This document shows positions 5,306 through 53,702 of a stretch of 53,702 bases of DNA, piece after piece. The notes under the pieces were generated by a model, which had not been told where the DNA came from, made no database searches, and saw nothing but the letters and a program-made list of their open reading frames with translations. The position numbers and the translations under genes were made by a program. This DNA comes from Candidatus Portnoyibacteriota bacterium (lineage in GTDB: Bacteria > Patescibacteriota > Minisyncoccia > Portnoybacterales > GWB1-42-6): positions 366,620 through 420,321 of the forward strand of contig JAQTYI010000001.1 of the NCBI GenBank assembly GCA_028688325.1, written 5' to 3'. Position 1 is the first letter of the stretch. The number at the start of each line of letters is the position of its first letter.

Positions 5306-7207
5306 ATGAACATACTTATTCCGCACAACTGGCTCAAGGACTACATCAAAACGAGCGCTTCGGCGCAGGATATCTCGCGGTTTTTGTCGTTGCACGCTTT
5401 TTCGGTTGAAAAAACAACGGAAGTCCCTCGACTCGCTTCGCTCTCTCGGGACGAAAATGATTACATTTTCGAAATCGAGATAACGCCAAATCGGGGCGAC
5501 GCTTTGTCGGTTCTGGGAATTGCGCGCGAGCTGCGGGCGATTTTGCCGATGCAGGGGATCGCCGCTGATTGGGTAGCTAAAGCAAATGATAAACAATCAA
5601 GCGTCCAAGAAAAATATGATCTGAAAGTGGAAATAAAAGATAAATCGCTTGTGCCCAGATTTTCCGCTGTTATCTTGGAGGATATTCAAATAAAAGATTC
5701 GCCCGATTTTATGAAGCAGCGCCTGGAAGCGGTGGGCACGCGCGCATTGAATAATGTCATCGATATTACCAACTACCTGATGTTTGATAAGGGCCAACCC
5801 ATGCACGCTTTTGACTATGACAAGATTTTGGGCGCCAAGATGCTGGTGCGCGAATCAAAAAAAGGTGAAAAGCTCATAACTCTGGACGGCATGGAACGCA
5901 CCTTGCCTGAAGGCGTCATTGTCATTGAGGATGGCGAAAGCCGCCTGATAGACCTTTGCGGCATTATGGGAGCCAAAAACAGCGAGGTGGATGAAAATAC
6001 CAAGCGGGTTTTGCTGTTTGTGCAGGTTTACGACCCGGTAAAAATTCGCAGATCTTCCATGGCTTTGGGCCATCGCACGGAAGCCGCGTTGCGGTTTGAA
6101 AAGGGCATTGATTTTGACGGCGTGGTGCCGGCGCTTTGGGAAGCGGTGGCGCTGATGGAAAAATATGCCGATGCAAAAGTAGTGTCAAAACTAATAGATA
6201 TTTTGAATGTGAAATACGAGCCCAAAAAAGTGGCGGTGGATTATGGAAAAATAAACCGGGTGGCGGGCGTTGAAATAAATAAAGAAACCGTAGATAAGAT
6301 TTTGCAGGATCTGGGTTTTGTTTTTGACGGCGGAAGCGTTATTGTCCCATCCTGGCGTTATGATGATATCGATTTGGCGGAGGACTTGGCCGAAGAAGTG
6401 GTGCGGCTTTATGGTTATGATAAATTGCCCGATAAGCTTTTGGCCGGCGAAATTCCGCAGCAAGTCGCCGATCCTGTTTTCAAACTGGAAGACAGCGCGC
6501 GCAGCTATTTAAAGCACCAAGGATTTTTTGAGTGCTACACAAATTCCGCCACGAACCAAAATTTGGCGGGCGAGAACGCGATAGAAATCGCCAACCCCCT
6601 GACTGAAGATTTTGCGTTTCTGAAAACTTCGCTTTTACCCCAGCTTCTGGCGGTGCTGGAAAAAAATCAGGGTTATAGCGATAAAGTGAAAATTTTTGAA
6701 CTGGCGAGTGTGTATTTGGCCAAAAAAGGCGACTTACCCGAGCAGCCCATGCGCCTTGGTCTGGCGGTGCGCGGAGCGGGATACCCGGAATTTAAAGGAG
6801 AAATAGAGGGATTATTGGAAGAGCTCGGGGTGAGCATCGATTTTGACATTAAGGAATTTGGCGATACTATTTTGGCCGCAGAATTGGATTTTAAAAAAAT
6901 TTCTCATAGTCCGCGCCGGACAAAAACTTATGCGCCGATAAGCTCATTCAATTCCATTAAGGAGGATTTGACTTTCATTATGCCGGAAAATCGTGATATC
7001 AGATATCACGAAATTAGCGAAGCCATAATGTCGGCGGACAAAAGGATAAAAAAACTGCAATTTAAGGATATTTACCAAAACTTCTTGACTCTATCCATTG
7101 AATATTTGGATGCGGCCAAGCAGATATCTTCGGAGCAAACGCAGGAGATAAGGAAGAAAATTTTTGAGCAGTTGGAGAAAAAGTTGGGAGTGAAGTTGAA
7201 AGTGTAG
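5306..7207 (+). CDS. pheT: Phenylalanyl-tRNA synthetase beta subunit, short form
   Basis: PheT is the partner of PheS, carrying the B3/B4, B5 and C-terminal anticodon-binding domains. After the NWLKDYI start it moves at about residue 50 straight to FEIEITPNRGDALSVLGIAREL, so the usual 100-residue tRNA-binding (EMAP/OB) insert is absent; this explains 633 residues instead of about 790. B5 (about residues 305-390) and a C-terminal FDX-ACB domain (ISSFNSIKEDLTF onward) are present. A short arginine/serine-rich stretch RLASLSRDE near residue 45 comes from a small palindrome. The enzyme should still function; similar trimming is usual in CPR. Confidence 0.95.
   Translation: MNILIPHNWLKDYIKTSASAQDISRFLSLHAFSVEKTTEVPRLASLSRDENDYIFEIEITPNRGDALSVLGIARELRAILPMQGIAADWVAKANDKQSSVQEKYDLKVEIKDKSLVPRFSAVILEDIQIKDSPDFMKQRLEAVGTRALNNVIDITNYLMFDKGQPMHAFDYDKILGAKMLVRESKKGEKLITLDGMERTLPEGVIVIEDGESRLIDLCGIMGAKNSEVDENTKRVLLFVQVYDPVKIRRSSMALGHRTEAALRFEKGIDFDGVVPALWEAVALMEKYADAKVVSKLIDILNVKYEPKKVAVDYGKINRVAGVEINKETVDKILQDLGFVFDGGSVIVPSWRYDDIDLAEDLAEEVVRLYGYDKLPDKLLAGEIPQQVADPVFKLEDSARSYLKHQGFFECYTNSATNQNLAGENAIEIANPLTEDFAFLKTSLLPQLLAVLEKNQGYSDKVKIFELASVYLAKKGDLPEQPMRLGLAVRGAGYPEFKGEIEGLLEELGVSIDFDIKEFGDTILAAELDFKKISHSPRRTKTYAPISSFNSIKEDLTFIMPENRDIRYHEISEAIMSADKRIKKLQFKDIYQNFLTLSIEYLDAAKQISSEQTQEIRKKIFEQLEKKLGVKLKV
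6991..7011. repeat. Palindrome inside pheT shared with dprA 3' end
   Basis: Arms TCGTGATAT and ATATCACGA around CAG lie in the FDX-ACB coding region, encoding part of NRDIRYHEIS. The reverse complement of the whole 21-bp palindrome recurs at 29183-29203 beside the dprA stop. Confidence 0.7.
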
Positions 7208-16987: not shown

Positions 16988-17135
16988 ATAAAATTAGTTC
17001 ATTTCATTAAAACTTGCGATTGGCCATAGCCAAAAGATGCTTTGTTTGAGGCATTTTCCGGCTATGGCCAATAAAGGCCGGCCCCAAACCGCGGAGAGCG
17101 GGACATATTTGGCAATTAGCCAAAAGGAGGATATC

Positions 17136-17783
17136 ATGGGACAAGTAAATGAGTTGAAGGATTTTACACGTGGACAGTTAGACTCGGCTTTGATGAAAAT
17201 CGGACAGGACGCCGGCATGGGCACCGCGGAAGGTATTCGCGCTTTTCTGTCGGGCGAGTTGATTATTTCCAGACCGTCATGTCTCTGGCGTGAACAAGAC
17301 GGTGTCATCTATTTCTCGGTCACATCGGACAACACCACTGGCCTGCAGTGGATAGAGCGTTTGGAAAAGAAGAAGTTTCGAGTCAGCGATTATGCCAAAA
17401 TTCTGCTCCGTTCTCCGGATTTCGAACCGACCAGCGGCGTGACCTATCACATCGCGGTCATCAAAGGAATGTTCTTTGAGGATAAAGACCGCATCACCAA
17501 AAACATCCGCGCCGGGGCCGAAAAGAGAAACTGGCAAAAGCCCAATGCCGAAGTCGCCTGTCTTATCCGTGAGAAGTTCTCAGATAAGGAATTAGAGGCC
17601 ATGGGTCTTTGGTGGATTGTGACAATGCACGAACCCATTAAAGATTCTTACGGCGATTTGCGTCTCCTGGGTGTGAGCCGGGGCGGTGATGGTCGGTGGT
17701 TGCGCACGGACTACGGCGGCCCTGCTGACAGGTGGTATCGTGACCGTGGGTTCGCGTTCGTCGTCTCGCAAGTTGGTGCTTAG
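17136..17783 (+). CDS. DGR 1 target protein with C-terminal variable region
   Basis: The protein has 215 residues and starts at ATG 17136 behind AAAGGAGG. The last 45 residues or so, from SYGDLRLLGVSRGGDGRW to FAFVVSQ, are encoded by the variable repeat and match the template at 18150-18277 except mainly where the template has A. The constant part contains WWIVTMHEPI just before the VR. The DGRW and FAFVVSQ framework recalls the C-type-lectin-like fold of DGR targets, which presents variable residues on a binding surface; this is inferred. No signal peptide or membrane segment is seen, so the protein appears cytoplasmic and the ligand is unknown. Confidence 0.9.
   Translation: MGQVNELKDFTRGQLDSALMKIGQDAGMGTAEGIRAFLSGELIISRPSCLWREQDGVIYFSVTSDNTTGLQWIERLEKKKFRVSDYAKILLRSPDFEPTSGVTYHIAVIKGMFFEDKDRITKNIRAGAEKRNWQKPNAEVACLIREKFSDKELEAMGLWWIVTMHEPIKDSYGDLRLLGVSRGGDGRWLRTDYGGPADRWYRDRGFAFVVSQVGA
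17644..17771 (+). repeat. DGR 1 variable repeat (VR1)
   Basis: VR1 is 128 bp at the 3' end of the target gene. It aligns without gaps to TR1 (offset 506). There are 20 differences: 17 at template adenines (12 to G, 4 to C, 1 to T) and 3 elsewhere (G to T at 17649, T to G at 17708 and 17709). The last 24 bases, GGGTTCGCGTTCGTCGTC plus TCGCAA, are identical and are the likely initiation-of-homing site. Confidence 0.95.
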
Positions 17784-17787
17784 GTCT

Positions 17788-17819
17788 GAGATTCTTTGTG
17801 CTTTGGTCTTTGGAATCTC
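17788..17819 (+). promoter_or_regulatory. Hairpin directly after VR1
   Basis: GAGATTC (17788-17794) pairs with GAATCTC (17813-17819). It begins 4 bp after the stop codon. A related hairpin follows VR2 (52763-52786), and both are followed by GGTCC. In known DGRs a hairpin just after the VR assists homing; that role is inferred here. Confidence 0.6.
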
Positions 17820-17847
17820 GGTCCTTTGTACTTGAACGAAAAATACA

Positions 17848-17885
17848 AGCCCGCATGATATGGAGGAATCATGCGGGCTTTTTCT
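17848..17885 (+). terminator. Terminator of the DGR 1 target gene
   Basis: Perfect 12-bp stem AGCCCGCATGAT/ATCATGCGGGCT, loop ATGGAGGA, then a T-rich tract. Confidence 0.92.
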
Positions 17886-17897
17886 TTTGGGACAATG

Positions 17898-17906
17898 TGA
17901 TAGAAT
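17898..17906 (+). promoter_or_regulatory. Candidate promoter of template RNA 1
   Basis: TGATAGAAT is an extended -10 element just past the target terminator and 243 bp before TR1. The identical nonamer is at 52844-52852 in DGR 2, again after the terminator and 231 bp before TR2. Confidence 0.6.
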
Positions 17907-17912
17907 AAAATT

Positions 17913-18300
17913 GGTAGTAGGAAATGTACGGATGACTAAGGTTTTCCGTCTCCGAATCCAGTATCCATACATTGAGATTATCTCAGATCAAGATTTGAGA
18001 TAGCGCGATGTATGCAGATCCGCCCGCCTTGGGCGGGAACTTCAAAAAACGAAGATACTTGGTATGAGATGTTATGGCATCTAAAATGCCGAATTAGATA
18101 CAGCTCAAAGAGTATTCAATGAGCAGTGACATGGATGGCACTTCATACAATTCTGACGGCGATTTGAATCTCCTGGATGTGAACCGGAACGATGATGGTC
18201 GGTGGTTGAACACTTACTACGACAACCCTGATAACAGGTGGAATCGTGACAATGGGTTCGCGTTCGTCGTCTCGCAACTCACTTCATTTCTCTCCCGGCT
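17913..18300 (+). ncRNA. DGR 1 template RNA (limits approximate)
   Basis: No convincing gene lies between the target terminator and avd. The stretch can fold: CATACAT (17966) pairs with ATGTATG (18008) enclosing TATCTCA/TGAGATA. AAGATACTTGG (18052) and AGAGTATTC (18109) also occur in DGR 2 with the same 57-bp separation and can pair through GATACT/AGTATT. TR1 follows. In known DGRs the TR is transcribed in a non-coding RNA used by the reverse transcriptase. The 3' end is not visible; a GC hairpin (CCGG arms) lies at 18293-18317, antisense to the avd end. Confidence 0.7.
18150..18277 (+). repeat. DGR 1 template repeat (TR1)
   Basis: TR1 is the 128-bp template for VR1. In the VR frame it is rich in AAC and AAT codons (DLNLLDVNRNDDGRW pattern), the codons that adenine mutagenesis diversifies most. 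It has 31 adenines, 17 of them changed in VR1. None of its codons can become a stop by changing an A. It ends 6 bp before the antisense avd stop. The short frame open through it is not regarded as a gene. Confidence 0.95.
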
Positions 18301-18622
18301 TTTTGCCCGGAGAGTTTTGTTTTAGAAGCTGGCCGTGCCAGCCGCCAAGCATTTTGCCAATCTCGGTTAATTTTTCCGAAAGTGCGATATATTTTTTATT
18401 GTCCAGTGATTTGGTTTCCCAAAGAATCATCAGGAATATTTTAAGGGTGTCGGTTTTGCGAATTGCTAATCCGACATATGGTAATTTTTCTTCCGGCTTT
18501 AAAAAGACGGCGATGGCAACGGCTTCAATAATTTCTGTCAATAAGTTGTCTATCTTTTTACCCAGGGTATAGCGATGCGTCCTTGGCAGGATTTGATAAT
18601 ATCCATACCAAATGATATACAA
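18284..18622 (-). CDS. avd: Avd-like DGR accessory protein
   Basis: This is a predicted four-helix-bundle protein of the Avd family, a basic pentamer that binds the reverse transcriptase and template RNA in studied DGRs. Signature parts are LPRTHRYTLGKKID near the N-terminus and SLDNKKYIALSEKL plus EIGKMLGGW near the C-terminus. It aligns without gaps in these blocks to the DGR 2 copy. The TTG at 18622 is taken as start. Alignment to DGR 2 suggests the protein begins 7 codons earlier at CTG (18643), giving 119 residues. Unusually it lies between TR and RT on the opposite strand, its 3' end meeting the 3' end of TR1. Confidence 0.85.
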   Translation of the reverse strand: MYIIWYGYYQILPRTHRYTLGKKIDNLLTEIIEAVAIAVFLKPEEKLPYVGLAIRKTDTLKIFLMILWETKSLDNKKYIALSEKLTEIGKMLGGWHGQLLKQNSPGKKPGEK

Positions 18623-18656
18623 AGATTTAATTTTTTGAAGCAGGGAAGGAAGTGTC

Positions 18657-18666
18657 GGGGGGGGGG
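18657..18666. repeat. Run of ten G between avd and RT
   Basis: A G10 tract followed by CGTTAAAA lies between the divergent avd and RT starts, 18 bp before the RT ATG. DGR 2 has exactly the same G10-CGTTAAAA at 53580-53597. Confidence 0.85.
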
Positions 18667-18684
18667 CGTTAAAAATTCATTTTT

Positions 18685-19677
18685 ATGAAAAGCCAATTGA
18701 TCCATAGTTTTGATAAGATTATTAGCATTGAAAATTTACTGGAAGCCTGGAAAGAGTTTTTGCGTGGCAAGCGAGGCAAAAAGGATGTGCAGGGATTTTC
18801 TTTGAATCTGATGGACAATATTTTTTCGCTTCACGATGATCTATTTAATCATACCTATAAGCACGGCGGTTATCAAGCGTTCAATATTTGCGACCCGAAG
18901 CACCGGGCAATACACAAAGCGAGTGTGCGCGACCGGCTGCTGCACCACGCAATTTATAGAGTTCTTTACCCATTTTTTGCCAAGACATTCATTGCCGATT
19001 CTTTTTCTTGCCAGCTTGGCAAGGGAACACATCGGGCATTAAATCGTTTTCGCGAGTTTTCTCAAATAGTCAGCAAAAACAATACTTGTTCTTGCCGGGT
19101 TTTGAAATGCGACATCAAAAAGTTTTTTGCCAGTATAGACCAGGCGGTTTTGTTGGATATTTTAAGGCGATATATCCCGGAACGTGAAACTGTTTGGTTG
19201 CTTGAAGGGATAATTTATAGTTTTCATGCAGAACCGAGCAAGGGCTTACCTTTGGGCAATTTGACTTCGCAATTGCTGGTTAATATTTATATGAACGAAT
19301 TTGACCAGTTTGTGAAGCATAAACTGAAAGTGAAATATTATATTCGCTACGCCGATGACTTCGTGATATTTTCAGAAAATCGCGAATGGCTGCAAAAACT
19401 TATTGCCGCCATCGATGATTTTTTATCGTATAAATTAAAACTAAAATTACATCCCAACAAAGTTTTTATAAAATCACTGCATTCAGGCGTGGATTTCCTC
19501 GGTTGGGTTAATTTTCCCGATCATCGGGTATTGCGGACAACGACCAAGCGGCGCATGATGCGAAGATTGCGAGAAAATAAATTCAATGCCGCTTTCAGTT
19601 CTTATTTAGGGTTGCTTAAACATGGTAATGCTCGTAAAATAGAGGAGGGGATAAAGGATTTAATGATTGAGAAATAG
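18685..19677 (+). CDS. DGR reverse transcriptase
   Basis: The protein has 330 residues with all RT core motifs: CDIKKFFASID (catalytic Asp 143), GLPLGNLTSQ (187-196), YIRYADDFVIFS (YADD 222-225) and FLGW (271-274). The LGNLTSQ form, with SQ in place of the usual QG, is the hallmark of DGR reverse transcriptases, which copy the TR with errors at adenines. The absence of a maturase or endonuclease domain argues against a group II intron. ATG 18685 is the start; no normal Shine-Dalgarno is seen, only the distant G10 tract. The start matches the DGR 2 RT residue for residue in the LLEAWKEFL block. Confidence 0.96.
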   Translation: MKSQLIHSFDKIISIENLLEAWKEFLRGKRGKKDVQGFSLNLMDNIFSLHDDLFNHTYKHGGYQAFNICDPKHRAIHKASVRDRLLHHAIYRVLYPFFAKTFIADSFSCQLGKGTHRALNRFREFSQIVSKNNTCSCRVLKCDIKKFFASIDQAVLLDILRRYIPERETVWLLEGIIYSFHAEPSKGLPLGNLTSQLLVNIYMNEFDQFVKHKLKVKYYIRYADDFVIFSENREWLQKLIAAIDDFLSYKLKLKLHPNKVFIKSLHSGVDFLGWVNFPDHRVLRTTTKRRMMRRLRENKFNAAFSSYLGLLKHGNARKIEEGIKDLMIEK

Positions 19678-26101: not shown

Positions 26102-28396
26102 TTATTCCTTTATTGTCGGTTTGGCTTCTTTTTCCTTATAATCGCATTCTTTGTTGCTGCATTTTACGCCGTGCTTGTTTTCAATCAGGGGGGACTCGCA
26201 CTTGGGGCACTTATCTCCCGTGGGCTTATCCCAGAGCGCAAAATCGCATTCGGGATAGCGGGAACAGCCATAGAACATTTTACCTCTTTTGGTGCGCCTG
26301 GCAATGACCTTGCCTTCAACGCATTTTGGGCAGGCCATGGCGTTGGGATCGCTGACGCTGGCGGTGTAGCGGCATTTGGGAAAATTCGAGCAGGCGTAAA
26401 ATTTACCAAAGCGGCTGGTTCGGATGACGACCGGCGCGCCGCATTTGGGGCAAATTTTATCCGTGGCTTCGGGCGCGGTTTTTTGTTCCTTGACCTCGTC
26501 GTATTTTTTAGTGAGATTGACCTTGAATGGTTCGTAAAATTCTTTGATGACCTCGGTCCAGGGAATCTCGCCTTCGGCAATCCTATCAAAGTCCTCCTCG
26601 ATGTGAGCGGTGAATTTTATATCCACAACTTGCGGAAAATGCTCAACGAGCAGGTCGTTGACCTTAAAGCCGATTTCCGTGGGCATGAATTTCCTGTTCT
26701 CATCTTTATTGACATAGTTCCTTTCCTGGATGGTGGAAATGATGGGCGCATAAGTTGAGGGGCGTCCGATGCCTTCCGCTTCCAGCGCCTTAATGATGGA
26801 GGCCTCCGAGTAGCGCGCGGGGGGCTGCGTAAAGTGCTGGCCGGGATTTAATTTCACCAAGTTCAGATTTTCTTTGACCTCAAGCGGCGGCAGGATATTT
26901 TCCTGCATCTTGCCATTATAGATCTTCAAAAAGCCGTCAAATTTTATTTGCGAACCGTTGGCACGGAAGATATAAATATTATTTTTGTCATTCTGAGGGA
27001 GCTCCGCGACCGAAGAATCTTTTTTTAGATCCTTCCCCCGCTGCTGCGGGGTCAGGATGACACCGTGGGATCCCTTCGCATCGACATCAACGGTCAGGGT
27101 ATTTATCACGGCGCTAGCCATTTGGCAGGCGAGCGTCCGGCGCCAGATAAGGTCATAAAGCTTATATTGCTGCGGCGTTAAAAATTGCTCGATTTTTTCC
27201 GGAGCGAGAGAAATGAGAGTCGGCCTTATCGCCTCATGCGCTTCCTGCGCACCTTTGGATTTGGTTTTATAGACGCGCGCGTTTTCGGGCAGATATTCTT
27301 TGCCGAAGCTGTCTATTATATATTGGCCGATGGAGCTTAGTGCCTCTTGCGCCAGATTGGTTGAATCGGTGCGCATATAGGTTATCAAGCCCACTGAGCC
27401 CTCTTTACCCAGCGCAATGCCTTCATATAATTGTTGGGCTATCTGCATCGTCTGTTTGGCGGAAAAATGCAGTTTGTTGACCGCGTCCTGCTGCAGGGTG
27501 CTCGTGACAAACGGCGGGGCCGGATGTTTTTGCGTGTCTTTCTGTTCGATGTTGGCAACCTGCCAGGCGGCGCCGGCCAGATCATCAACTATCTTTTGCG
27601 CTTCCGCCTGCGTTTTTATGCCGAGCTTGGGAATCTGTTTATCATTTATCCTTATCAGATTGGCGTCAAATTGCCCTTCGGTATTTTCTTCGGTTTTGAC
27701 TTTTGAGTTTTGACTTTTGAGCTTGAGGAGCGTAGCGACGATTGACCAGTATTCTTCCGGCTTGAATTTTTGGATTTCCCTTTCCCGTTCCACTATCAAG
27801 CGCACGGCCACCGATTGCACGCGGCCGGCCGAAAGCCCCTTGGCGATTTTTTTCCATAAAAAAGGCGAGAGCTCATAGCCCACAAGCCGATCCAGAATCC
27901 TGCGCGCCTGCTGGGCGTTAACCAGATCCATATCTATTTCTCGCGGATTTTGCAGAGCTTTCTCTATCGCGCCTTTGGTTATTTCATGAAAAACGATTCG
28001 TTCAACTACCGCTTCTGACGGATGAGATTTTTTTAACCCCCCTTTGCCCCCCTTTAAAAGGGGGGTTGGGGGGGGGTTAGATTTCGCGGAATCCGCAGTT
28101 TCCAGATCCAAGGCCTGGGTCAAATGCCAGGCAATGGCTTCTCCTTCGCGGTCTTCGTCGGAAGCCAGGATGACTTTTTTCGCTTTTGGCAAAACTTTTT
28201 TTATTTCCGCCAGTTTTTTGCGCGCGGCAATGGAGACCACATATTTGGGTTCGAAATTATGTTCGGTGTCTACGCCGAGTTTTCCTTTGGGCAGATCACG
28301 CACATGTCCGTAGGACGAGCGCACAACAAAATCAGCGGGCAGGAACCGCTGGATTGTTTTGGCCTTGGTAGGCGATTCAACGATAATTAGATTCAT
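26102..28396 (-). CDS. topA: DNA topoisomerase I
   Basis: Type IA topoisomerase relaxing negative supercoils. TOPRIM starts MNLIIVESPTKAKTI and has DEDREGEAIAWHL. The active tyrosine is in GLITYMRTDSTNL. Three C-terminal four-cysteine zinc fingers begin CPKCGAP, CPKCVEG and CPKCESP. 764 residues include two in-frame repeat-derived inserts: NPPPTPLLKGGKGGLKK near residue 115, and HGVILTPQQRGKDL to LPQNDK near 450. Both lie between conserved blocks, so the enzyme is probably active. Confidence 0.96.
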   Translation of the reverse strand: MNLIIVESPTKAKTIQRFLPADFVVRSSYGHVRDLPKGKLGVDTEHNFEPKYVVSIAARKKLAEIKKVLPKAKKVILASDEDREGEAIAWHLTQALDLETADSAKSNPPPTPLLKGGKGGLKKSHPSEAVVERIVFHEITKGAIEKALQNPREIDMDLVNAQQARRILDRLVGYELSPFLWKKIAKGLSAGRVQSVAVRLIVEREREIQKFKPEEYWSIVATLLKLKSQNSKVKTEENTEGQFDANLIRINDKQIPKLGIKTQAEAQKIVDDLAGAAWQVANIEQKDTQKHPAPPFVTSTLQQDAVNKLHFSAKQTMQIAQQLYEGIALGKEGSVGLITYMRTDSTNLAQEALSSIGQYIIDSFGKEYLPENARVYKTKSKGAQEAHEAIRPTLISLAPEKIEQFLTPQQYKLYDLIWRRTLACQMASAVINTLTVDVDAKGSHGVILTPQQRGKDLKKDSSVAELPQNDKNNIYIFRANGSQIKFDGFLKIYNGKMQENILPPLEVKENLNLVKLNPGQHFTQPPARYSEASIIKALEAEGIGRPSTYAPIISTIQERNYVNKDENRKFMPTEIGFKVNDLLVEHFPQVVDIKFTAHIEEDFDRIAEGEIPWTEVIKEFYEPFKVNLTKKYDEVKEQKTAPEATDKICPKCGAPVVIRTSRFGKFYACSNFPKCRYTASVSDPNAMACPKCVEGKVIARRTKRGKMFYGCSRYPECDFALWDKPTGDKCPKCESPLIENKHGVKCSNKECDYKEKEAKPTIKE
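26983..27062. repeat. GTCATTCTGAG-type repeat inside topA
   Basis: TTGTCATTCTGAGGGAGC to GGGGTCAGGATGACACC is a full palindromic element lying in frame in topA. It keeps the frame open over about 27 codons. Confidence 0.85.
28033..28081. repeat. C/G-rich repeat inside topA
   Basis: TTAACCCCCCTTTGCCCCCC and AAAAGGGGGGTTGGGGGG (family C) lie in frame, encoding the proline/glycine-rich insert near residue 115. Confidence 0.85.
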
Positions 28397-51347: not shown

Positions 51348-51358
51348 TTAGAAATTTA
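51342..51358. repeat. Left 17-bp inverted repeat around the GIY-YIG gene
   Basis: GGCCCGTTAGAAATTTA overlaps the tRNA-Pro 5' end and the nuclease stop codon. Its exact reverse complement is at 51610-51626. Confidence 0.9.
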
Positions 51359-51610
51359 TATGGCAAAAAAGAATTTTAATCTATTCTTTAAATACTTTTT
51401 ACCCATACCTGATTTTAAATATTTCTCTCTGGCTTTGGCATCTTTTTCGTTTAAAGACGCCTCGCAGTATATAAATTTTAATGGTCGCCTGTCTTTTGTC
51501 GCAAAATTCAGCCCTTTATTGTGTTCTAAAATTCTTTTTTGCAAATCATTGGTATAACCTGTGTACCAATTGCCGTCTCTATCGCTTTTTAGCACATAGA
51601 CATAATGCAT
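51356..51610 (-). CDS. GIY-YIG nuclease domain protein
   Basis: 84 residues of the UvrC-like single-domain GIY-YIG family: YVYVLKSDRDGNWYTGYT holds the two GIY/YIG tyrosine blocks, followed by DLQKRILEHNKG and the catalytic Glu in IYCEASLNEKDAKAREKYLK. The biological substrate of this small family is unknown. It lies between tRNA-Pro and rpmB, with a 17-bp inverted repeat at its exact ends. Confidence 0.92.
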   Translation of the reverse strand: MHYVYVLKSDRDGNWYTGYTNDLQKRILEHNKGLNFATKDRRPLKFIYCEASLNEKDAKAREKYLKSGMGKKYLKNRLKFFFAI

Positions 51611-51626
51611 AAATTTCTAACGGGCC
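51610..51626. repeat. Right 17-bp inverted repeat around the GIY-YIG gene
   Basis: TAAATTTCTAACGGGCC, followed by GATGGCCCG, which again recalls the tRNA-Pro acceptor end. Confidence 0.9.
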
Positions 51627-51641
51627 GATGGCCCGAAAAAA

Positions 51642-51865: not shown

Positions 51866-51988
51866 AAGTTTTCTTTTAATTTATCACTCATTATGATATA
51901 GCAAAAAAACAGATTTGGCAAATTTTTAGCACTTGGAACACATCTTTTTATTAAAAATGGGGACTACTGTTGTTTCTCGGACATTGTC

Positions 51989-52017
51989 TTGACAATAACA
52001 TTTTTAAGGTGTATACT
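51989..52017 (+). promoter_or_regulatory. Promoter of the DGR 2 target gene
   Basis: TTGACA (51989-51994), 17-bp spacer, TATACT (52012-52017). AAGGTGTATACTA around the -10 matches the DGR 1 target promoter. The leader to the ATG is about 105 bases. Confidence 0.85.
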
Positions 52018-52128
52018 AATAAAGTACATTAAAAACAGCGTATTTGAAGCAAATAACGGCAAGTCACATATTCTGGCACTGGGTCGGAATAAAGGATAAG
52101 CCAAAACGAAAGAAAGGGAGGACTGACC

Positions 52129-52749
52129 ATGGTAAAAGACATGCTCGGTGCGTTGATGCGGAAGATTGTGAATCTCTCATTGGAAATGCTTAAAGTTATC
52201 TACGATCTGGTGGAGAAGCTGTCGGGCGAAGCAGGCCAAGAATGGCTTGCTGAACTTAAAAAATTTCTCCGTAAGGAGAATTGCTGGACAGGCGTTATTG
52301 AGAATACCGCTCAGCAAGCAAAAAACATTTTTCATCTTATGGTCGGCGGCAATCGCACCACGGAAGAAATGGTTAAAGCCGGAAAATATGACTGGTCAAA
52401 TGGCGACATAACCAGCAAAAATTTTCCTATGCGGCCGCGACCAGCCGGTAAAAGAATCATTGAGTTGATTGAGCTTGACCACGGTCCGACTTCTGAAGAA
52501 GTTCTTGCCGAGGCAGAAAGACTTGGACTGGAGAGGCCGGTTTATGAGGATGCCTTATTTTTCGGGGAGCAATTTCCCGAAAAGCAGCGGGAACGGCCAA
52601 TCGTGTTTTTGCATGAACCTTGGCAGAGCCCGGGCGGTGGCCTTCGTGTGCTGGTGCTCGACAGTATTTCTGTGGAGCGCGGTCTGAGCCTGCGTTGGTT
52701 TGGCCACAGGTGGGATCGCTACTGCATGTTCGCTTTTGTCCGCAAGTAG
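52129..52749 (+). CDS. DGR 2 target protein with C-terminal variable region
   Basis: 206 residues starting at ATG 52129 behind GGGAGG. The N-terminal about 55 residues are helical (LSLEMLKVIYDLVEKL). A middle part contains TEEMVKAGKYDWSNGDITSK. The last 42 residues, after VFLHEPW, are encoded by VR2; LSLRWFGHRWDRYCMFAFVRK is the end. The RWF...W...C-FAFVRK frame is a pattern I associate with a group of hypothetical CPR proteins. A C-type-lectin-like fold is inferred. No signal peptide. The rest differs from the DGR 1 target. Confidence 0.9.
   Translation: MVKDMLGALMRKIVNLSLEMLKVIYDLVEKLSGEAGQEWLAELKKFLRKENCWTGVIENTAQQAKNIFHLMVGGNRTTEEMVKAGKYDWSNGDITSKNFPMRPRPAGKRIIELIELDHGPTSEEVLAEAERLGLERPVYEDALFFGEQFPEKQRERPIVFLHEPWQSPGGGLRVLVLDSISVERGLSLRWFGHRWDRYCMFAFVRK
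52621..52745 (+). repeat. DGR 2 variable repeat (VR2)
   Basis: 125 bp aligned without gaps to TR2 (offset 463). There are 19 differences, every one at a template adenine (14 to G, 3 to C, 2 to T). The last 20 bases, ATGTTCGCTTTTGTCCGCAA, are identical and likely form the homing start. Confidence 0.97.
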
Positions 52750-52762
52750 CACTTGGGGCCTT

Positions 52763-52786
52763 GGATTCCTGAAACTTCGGGAATCC
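52763..52786 (+). promoter_or_regulatory. Hairpin directly after VR2
   Basis: GGATTCC (52763-52769) pairs with GGAATCC (52780-52786); TTGGTCCC follows, as GGTCC does after the VR1 hairpin. Confidence 0.6.
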
Positions 52787-52801
52787 TTGGTCCCTTTTTT
52801 T

Positions 52802-52828
52802 ATTCTCGCCGGAAGGCGAGAATTTTTA
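52802..52828 (+). terminator. Terminator of the DGR 2 target gene
   Basis: Perfect 9-bp stem ATTCTCGCC/GGCGAGAAT with GGAA loop, then TTTTATA. Confidence 0.88.
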
Positions 52829-52843
52829 TATTTTTGCAAATAG

Positions 52844-52852
52844 TGATAGAAT
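52844..52852 (+). promoter_or_regulatory. Candidate promoter of template RNA 2
   Basis: TGATAGAAT, identical to 17898-17906, in the same place relative to the terminator and the TR. Confidence 0.6.
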
Positions 52853-52858
52853 TAGACT

Positions 52859-53240
52859 CGGACAGTAAACTCAAAATAAGTTTTCGGTTACGGCTGAAAA
52901 CAGTTGGAATCCGGGGTTATTTAGCAGGGAATGGCACAGGACAAGTTTTGTGCCAGAGTTGTTTTTTAACTCCTAAAAAACAAAGATACTTGGCGTAAAA
53001 TATTGGAGGATCATATATCCCGAATAAAATTCAGCCCCGAGAGTATTCTAAGGGCGGTGGCATAGATGATATTTTGCGCATAATGGCAGAACCCGGACGG
53101 TAACCTTAATGTGCTGGTGCTCAACAGTAATTCTGTGAAGCGCAATCTGAACCTGAATTGGTTTGACAACAGGTGGAATCGCAACTACATGTTCGCTTTT
53201 GTCCGCAACTATCTTTTTTCCCCGCCAGGCGCGGGGTTTT
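52859..53240 (+). ncRNA. DGR 2 template RNA (limits approximate)
   Basis: The region has no gene. AAGATACTTGG (52983) and AGAGTATTC (53040) are 57 bp apart as in DGR 1. TTTTCGGTTACGGCTGAAAA and GGCACAGGACAAGTTTTGTG-type hairpins occur upstream. TR2 follows. A GC hairpin CCCCGC/GCGGGG (53221-53236) lies right after it, antisense to the avd end. Confidence 0.7.
53084..53208 (+). repeat. DGR 2 template repeat (TR2)
   Basis: The 125-bp template holds 33 adenines, 19 of them changed in VR2. In the VR frame it reads mostly AAC/AAT at the variable sites (SNSVKRNLNLNWFDNRWN). One AAG codon could become a TAG stop. It ends exactly where the antisense avd stop codon begins. Confidence 0.97.
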
Positions 53241-53565
53241 CTCTTAATAATTGTTTTTGCCAACCCCCTATCATTTTACCGATTTCGCCTAATCGTTCAG
53301 AAAGAGCGATATATTTTTTGTTATCCAGAGATTTTATTTCCCAAGCGATTTGGACAAAAAATTTCAGCAAATCAAGTTTGGCGCCAGCTTTTTGCACGAA
53401 TGGCATTTTTTGATTTTTAGCCAAGCGACTGGCGATAAAAATAATCTCGGTCGTTTCAATAATCAATCCGTCAATTTTTATTCCCAGAGTATAGCGTGAT
53501 GTTTTTGGGATATGCGGCAAGAAATCGTGCCAGAGTTTGTAGGCGGCAATTAGTTTTTGGACCAA
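53209..53565 (-). CDS. avd: Avd-like DGR accessory protein
   Basis: 118 residues from TTG 53565. KTSRYTLGIKIDGL, SLDNKKYIALSERL and EIGKMIGGWQKQLL match the DGR 1 Avd block by block, with the same spacing. Predicted four-helix bundle that binds the reverse transcriptase and template RNA. It is antisense to, and directly abuts, TR2. The frame stays open further upstream through the C-run, so a start further out cannot be excluded. Confidence 0.87.
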   Translation of the reverse strand: MVQKLIAAYKLWHDFLPHIPKTSRYTLGIKIDGLIIETTEIIFIASRLAKNQKMPFVQKAGAKLDLLKFFVQIAWEIKSLDNKKYIALSERLGEIGKMIGGWQKQLLRENPAPGGEKR

Positions 53566-53579
53566 TGATAGATTTGTCT

Positions 53580-53589
53580 GGGGGGGGGG
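53580..53589. repeat. Run of ten G between avd and RT, DGR 2
   Basis: G10 followed by CGTTAAAA, 19 bp before the RT ATG; the same as 18657-18674. Confidence 0.85.
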
Positions 53590-53608
53590 CGTTAAAAGCC
53601 GAATTTTT

Positions 53609-53702
53609 ATGAAAATTCAATTGGTCCATAAATTTGAAGATATAATTAACATTGAAAATTTGCTGGAAGCATGGAAGGAATTTTTGAAGGGTAAAAAACA
53701 GC
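53609..53702 (+). CDS. DGR reverse transcriptase, N-terminal fragment
   Basis: 31 codons before the window ends: QLVHKFEDIINIENLLEAWK is 20 of them. Matches the DGR 1 RT start in IENLLEAWKEFL and in the spacing from the G10 tract. The catalytic motifs would lie beyond the window. The identification rests on this match and on the TR/avd context. Confidence 0.88.
   Translation, partial: MKIQLVHKFEDIINIENLLEAWKEFLKGKKQ

Follow-up and report, generated by a model that had tools for sequence, protein, structure and literature searches.

What kind of retroelement lies at the end of a Candidatus Portnoyibacteriota contig, and by what parts would it copy its template, find its target and be controlled? 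Of the programmed protein hypermutators found in bacteria, diversity-generating retroelements (DGRs) are the best known, and phage BPP-1 has provided their most thoroughly studied template RNA and homing signals. Many DGRs are carried by the Patescibacteria, a huge, mostly uncultured group with tiny genomes, and the DGRs of CPR bacteria were reportedly first surveyed by Paul et al. in 2017. The window, by which we mean the whole stretch of 53,702 nucleotides that was analyzed, corresponds to C3:366620-420321 and ends where contig C3 ends, in a 911-kb source genome of 8 contigs that was scored 100% complete. The genome contains three DGRs, DGR1 and DGR2 on C3 and DGR3 on C8 (Table 1). RT4, a further RT gene on C3 (C3:336954-337541; L006:6706-7659), was considered as a fourth DGR and rejected, as there is no TR or VR there and its motifs (QGAPTS and YVDD) look retron-like; it adjoins an uncharacterized ORF. 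Elsewhere, window positions 51356-51630 hold a small GIY-YIG nuclease-like ORF that directly follows a tRNA-like sequence and is flanked by inverted copies of GGCCCGTTAGAAATTTAT / ATAAATTTCTAACGGGCC, and a possible origin of this ORF is insertion at the tRNA end.

Table 1. Features of DGR2 and of the two other DGRs of the genome (window positions unless a contig is named)
Feature	Position	Strand	Remarks
Sigma-70-like promoter of target gene 2	51989-52017	+	TTGACA-17-TATACT; 11/12 consensus matches; consensus match only
Target gene 2, 206 aa	52129-52749	+	ORF; helical N-terminal module, possibly C-type-lectin-like C-terminal variable domain
VR2, variable repeat	52621-52745	+	Ungapped alignment to TR2
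VR 3′ flank	52746-52803	+	CTTNG units (52752, 52760 and on), long hairpin, then T run
Structured leader RNA	52975-53089	+	5′ of TR; covariance model 117.8 bits
P0, 5′ strand (AAAGATA)	52982-52988	+	Pairs with 53210-53216 across leader and TR
Leader helix P1	52993-53004/53068-53079	+	
Leader helix P2	about 53007-53010/53017-53020	+	
Leader helix P3	53034-53037/53052-53055	+	
TR2, template repeat	53084-53208	+	Ungapped alignment to VR2
avd (bAvd, PF22296)	53209-53565	-	Convergent with TR, divergent from RT
P0, 3′ strand (TATCTTT)	53210-53216	+	
Terminator-like hairpin, then T run	53220-53236, T run through 53240	+	3′ of P0 strand
10-bp poly-G (RT strand)/poly-C (avd strand) tract	53580-53589		5′ part of avd open frame, ~20 nt before RT start
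RT2, first 31 codons	53609-53702	+	Remainder at C8 end, minus strand (L003:1288-2262)
DGR1, complete	17037-19677		Target, leader RNA, TR, reversed avd, 10-G tract, RT
DGR1 VR, within target	about 17641-17775		
DGR1 leader RNA	18044-18158		
DGR1 avd	18284-18622		Reversed
DGR1 10-G tract	18657-18666		
DGR1 RT	18685-19677		
DGR3, complete	C8:18217-21000 (L014)	-	

To determine the pattern of change between the two repeats, VR2 and TR2 were re-counted directly. The first-pass annotation had reported a 125-bp alignment without a gap in which 19 of 33 template adenines were changed and no other base differed, and the re-count reproduced both statements exactly: 14 adenines were kept, 14 were changed to G, 3 to C and 2 to T, and the remaining template bases (33 T, 31 G and 28 C) were all identical (0/92 changed). 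Were the 19 differences placed at random, the hypergeometric probability of all of them landing on the 33 adenines would be 6e-14. Moreover, the same bias was found in relatives. A VR/TR pair, ordered as in DGR2, was recovered from 76 of 104 related RT loci, and these pairs, when pooled, held 1296 changes at 2479 template adenines (718 to G, 330 to T and 248 to C) versus 44 changes at 6966 other bases. A plain diverged duplication that is adenine-only by chance or by adenine-specific drift, or an assembly artifact, draws support only from the contig being a draft and has a negligible chance of being correct, being refuted by the improbability of the direct count and by the recurrence of the pattern, in other sequences, in DGR1, DGR3 and 73 further loci.

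The coding consequences of the changes were confined to one end of the target. VR2 lies exactly in the C-terminus of target gene 2, where 15 of 19 adenine-bearing codons were altered and 15 amino acids changed. The variable region has an AAY-rich design in which a single codon is able to mutate to stop, and its variable codons allow about 10^18 different proteins. AlphaFold modeled target 2 with a pLDDT of 87.9, every block from residue 71 onward exceeding 90, as a helical N-terminal part followed by a mixed C-terminal domain. The best PDB fold matches of the model included many C-type lectins at weak scores (E 0.14, probability 0.6), and thus the C-terminal domain may be C-type-lectin-like. 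In other loci, such as L018, the N-terminus of the target was joined to different variable domains, and in L049 the variable domain followed another N-terminus, such that the CPR target proteins, these and others, look modular, with exchangeable N-terminal helical modules and differing C-terminal variable domains. Upstream of the gene, region 51988-52062 was 92% identical to a stretch upstream of target 3 on C8.

The genes that would serve the repeats followed in the order stated by the first-pass annotation, target, template RNA, avd and RT, though not in a common direction, as avd lies on the minus strand. Its opposite strand also rules out avd and RT as one operon. The Avd protein scored 53.5 bits against PF22296, above the cut-off of 40, and 61.9 bits against NCBIfam NF033474, below the cut-off of 80. 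The window itself holds just the first 94 nt of RT2. That RT2 is absent, no full RT lying in the window, was ruled out, as the rest of RT2 was found at the end of contig C8. The first ~40 residues of RT2 are split across the contig gap, which spans ~24 bp as judged by the near-identical RT3, and the near identity of RT3 in the 5′ half is probably why the assembly breaks here. On C8 the frame was open and encoded the DGR signature GLPLGNLTSQ (SQ in motif 4) and the catalytic YADD. The 80 nearest RTs in GTDB contigs were 59 to 76% identical and belonged to Patescibacteria, such as Moraniibacteriota and Paceibacterota, or to unnamed bacteria, with the exception of one titled Planctomycetota. Finally, in 73 of 76 CPR loci the order was target-TR-avd(reverse)-RT, an oppositely oriented avd being placed between TR and RT. 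Given the pooled adenine pattern and this shared layout, DGR2 is a typical and clean member of its group. We conclude that DGR2 is very probably a genuine DGR that diversifies its target by adenine-specific retrohoming, as first proposed, a reading well supported by the VR/TR pattern, Avd, the RT motifs and the 76 relatives. The system class is, as the earlier reading had it, already known, namely the DGR of the Patescibacteria/CPR type.

One way in which DGR2 could depart from its relatives is if its RT were damaged. RT2 carried an 18-amino-acid in-frame insertion between motifs 3 and 4, giving the longest such linker of 93 measured, and residues 143-163 around the insertion were disordered in the AlphaFold model. 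The insertion derives from a GC-rich palindromic element (L003:1774-1853, at the C8 end), a second copy of which was found at C8:144979-145018. A gene in L006 (4900-6399) bears other in-frame palindromic elements (NPPTPLCVRGDE, SPQPSPSKGEGE). DGR2 might thus be a decaying copy, with RT2 damaged by the insertion or the gap and with VR2, if refreshed at all, refreshed by RT1 or RT3 in trans; the 5′ halves of RT2 and RT3 were 92 to 93% identical, so either could serve. We consider decay unlikely, however, as the RT2 frame is open with all motifs intact, the length of the loop between these motifs varies among relatives (31 to 50), and VR2 is free of drift at 92 non-adenine sites. The last result also bears on the recent activity suggested by the first-pass annotation: the lack of change at non-adenine sites indicates that, on the time scale of drift, the copying of TR2 into VR2 is recent, and this part of the suggestion stood, but a current on state is not implied. 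Counterpoints to current activity are the unusual insertion in RT2 and the upstream ATG of avd, which is out of frame as assembled.

To determine what precedes the template repeat, the region 5′ of TR was aligned among relatives and a structured leader was found. In 44 aligned leaders the three helices were paired in 97.4% of cells, compensatory changes were seen at 17 of 19 pairs, and double changes numbered 224, as compared with 67 when shuffled; pairing fell to 31 to 36% when the partners were slid by one column, and the covariation was replicated in 18 new sequences. A covariance model of the leader matched exactly the three DGR leaders in the source genome (118, 113 and 99.5 bits, the next match scoring 14) and 64 of 188 class members, with no match in 83 non-CPR DGR loci. 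Moreover, 22 matches were obtained outside model building, several of them cut by contig ends, and of these 21 were accompanied by a VR/TR pair, 20 by a reversed avd and 16 by an RT. Among known Rfam families the sole match was RT-16 (RF03019), which aligned over its whole length exactly at the leader (core AUAAAAUaCAgcc ... ggcGGUg) with 24.3 bits; the gathering score of 50 was reached neither by DGR2 nor by any of 14 related loci, and the leader was therefore rejected as a member of a known Rfam family. We conclude that the leader is, with high confidence, a structured part of the template RNA.

The leader is also predicted to pair at a distance. The P0 helix, which would join the 5′ edge of the leader to the 3′ flank of TR, was supported in that the leader edge paired better with the flank of its own locus than with those of other loci (62 loci, P = 5e-5; 21 new loci outside the original sample, P = 0.001) and was mostly seen in the centroid fold of DGR2, and it was statistically weaker than P1 to P3. 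Downstream of TR, 58 of 76 relatives had a hairpin plus T run at a distance of ~11 nt, a combination seen in 1% of control windows. The folding energy of the whole template RNA was not unusual (z -0.77). Pairing by P0 would place the three-helix junction beside the TR 3′ end, where cDNA synthesis must begin, and we regard this function as rather likely.

The 3′ flank of VR was distinguished by a repeated pattern. Over the 65 nt after VR in 76 relatives there was a periodicity of 7 to 8 nt (lag 7, z +17; lag 8, z +20), with harmonics at 15 to 16 and 23 to 24, which was not found after TR or after 487 other gene ends. Of 76 VR flanks, 46 had a pair of CTTNG units 7 or 8 nt apart, as did none of the 76 TR flanks and 2 among 486 other ends, and the triple motif occurred twice in the source genome, after VR1 and after VR3. 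The flanks folded better than permuted units (P = 1e-4), and the flank of VR2 formed a hairpin (52755-52794, with TT/TT internal loops) of -29.7 kcal/mol (z -5.3). The GRNA hairpin that follows VR in phage DGRs was present in 34 of 65 viral loci versus 0 of 76 CPR loci, DGR2 included, and the CPR loci have the tandem array there instead. A plain terminator would account for the array only in part, as the periodicity is absent from other gene ends. That the array is an element exclusive to DGRs had to be softened, as comparable heptad arrays are present in some CPR genomes without this RT: many intergenic arrays of the CTTTGNN type were found in such Patescibacteria (L251-L258 in G011; L259-L264 in G004 and G008), and these resemble the TAACTGA arrays reported in Beggiatoaceae (PMC4679880). 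Within the target family, nevertheless, the array accompanied a nearby TR (P = 0.014). Seven cyanobacterial VR flanks had the same 7- to 8-nt period in other letters, and the cyanobacterial plasmid DGRs L165, L166 and L168 carry CCCTTTTA-like arrays in their VR 3′ flanks with a CPR-like period. We give an even chance to the array being a homing signal.

Lastly, a homopolymer lies in the 5′ part of the avd open frame. A run of 8 to 14 G's lay between avd and RT in 79 of 99 CPR DGR loci, versus 0.006 G or C runs of at least 8 per kb elsewhere in these loci, and any such run was present in 2 of 93 non-CPR DGR loci. The source genome had five runs of at least 9, three of them at DGRs. Another long poly-G run, at window positions 28068-28076, lies beside a C6/G6 palindrome and outside any DGR. 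The tract was inside the avd open frame in 96% of loci, encoding prolines at the start of the frame, and an ATG upstream of it was in frame with avd in 11 of 64 loci, the remaining 53 being off by one. These lengths were compared among single assemblies of species, and assembly error could alter single lengths but not the conservation of the run. The tracts of DGR1 to DGR3 were all 10 long, which is the off state by the upstream-ATG count; as assembled, avd2 has a single upstream ATG, which is out of frame, and a downstream TTG start was possible. Such a picture is the one expected of a phase-variable gene viewed in single assemblies, and one interpretation is that the tract is a phase-variable on/off switch of avd, a proposal for and against which the comparison weighs about equally. 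A competing account, short of probable but to be taken seriously, is that the tract acts as a fixed element, either a promoter or an untranslated part of the divergent avd/RT region, or else as a site of programmed slippage, and that Avd is translated from a downstream TTG or GTG. Such a codon was found between the tract and the Avd core in 47 of 64 loci, and the tract lies ~20 nt before the RT start and directly before the avd start codon given by the ORF rule; against this account, an ATG was found downstream in just 5 of 64 loci and no start codon at all in 12 of 64, the avd open frame spans the tract in nearly all loci, and the length of the tract varies from 8 to 14.

With the switch as the working interpretation, the parts may be assembled as follows. 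A short noncoding RNA comprising leader, TR and terminator hairpin would be transcribed on the plus strand; the leader would fold into a three-helix junction, its 5′ edge pairing with the TR 3′ flank through P0. RT-Avd would bind at the junction and copy TR, misincorporating opposite adenines, and the cDNA would replace VR, aided by the hairpin-forming array, which directly follows VR where phage DGRs have the GRNA hairpin. Up to 19 codons of the putative C-type-lectin-like binding domain would be diversified as a result. Slippage in the poly-C run probably switches Avd on and off, and mutagenesis would probably be switched with it; if true, only a fraction of cells mutates its binding protein at any time. 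The conserved 5′ domain of the template RNA, the reversed avd and the likely homopolymer switch are concrete parts that can be tested in the laboratory, and they could account for a small genome being able to keep down the cost of constant hypermutation. The leader is also a sensitive RNA model for DGR finding, having alone located VR/TR in 21 of 22 new loci. We tentatively propose that patescibacterial DGRs are a mechanistically distinct subtype, with a 5′ RT-Avd-binding RNA bearing a long-range helix, homing by an array, and phase gating of avd by poly-C.

How does DGR2 compare with known systems? A CPR-restricted DGR clade 2, with targets lacking recognized domains, is known (Roux et al. 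2021, PMC8144416). DGR2 shares with it the host group, several DGRs per genome, a C-terminal variable region, Avd and RT, and a target without a transmembrane or recognized domain; nothing tested contradicts membership, as judged here from sequence features. In the literature searched, as far as its available text goes and with the 2017 CPR survey outside the search, neither avd reversal in CPR nor a leader 5′ of TR, a tandem array at VR or phase variation of DGRs is mentioned, and the variant of CPR DGRs looks new, a novelty that is provisional. The avd tract, an 8- to 14-bp G/C run where a coding frame begins, resembles in this the homopolymeric tracts through which pathogens vary phase (e.g., PMC1891110, PMC8355987), and all three frame states were likewise assembled among the CPR relatives; the avd tract differs in lying within the accessory gene of a mutation machine and in that its length switching is something we infer. 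DGR2 and the Bordetella phage BPP-1 element are alike in adenine-specific copying from TR to VR, in RT and Avd, and in having structure after VR. BPP-1 has the order avd-TR-brt in one direction and a GC hairpin with a GRNA loop after VR (PMC3240598, PMC12875486), and among 80 viral loci of the BPP-1 type, the 76 in which an avd was identified all had it codirectional, whereas avd is reversed in DGR2 and 73 of its 76 relatives. In BPP-1, a structured RNA spacer that recruits RT-Avd sits 3′ of TR (PMC12875486), whereas DGR2 has its structured RNA 5′ of TR and a short hairpin 3′ of it, and P0 would carry the structure to the same end. We conclude that the comparative anatomy of DGR2, as read from its sequence, marks a distinct and testable variant.
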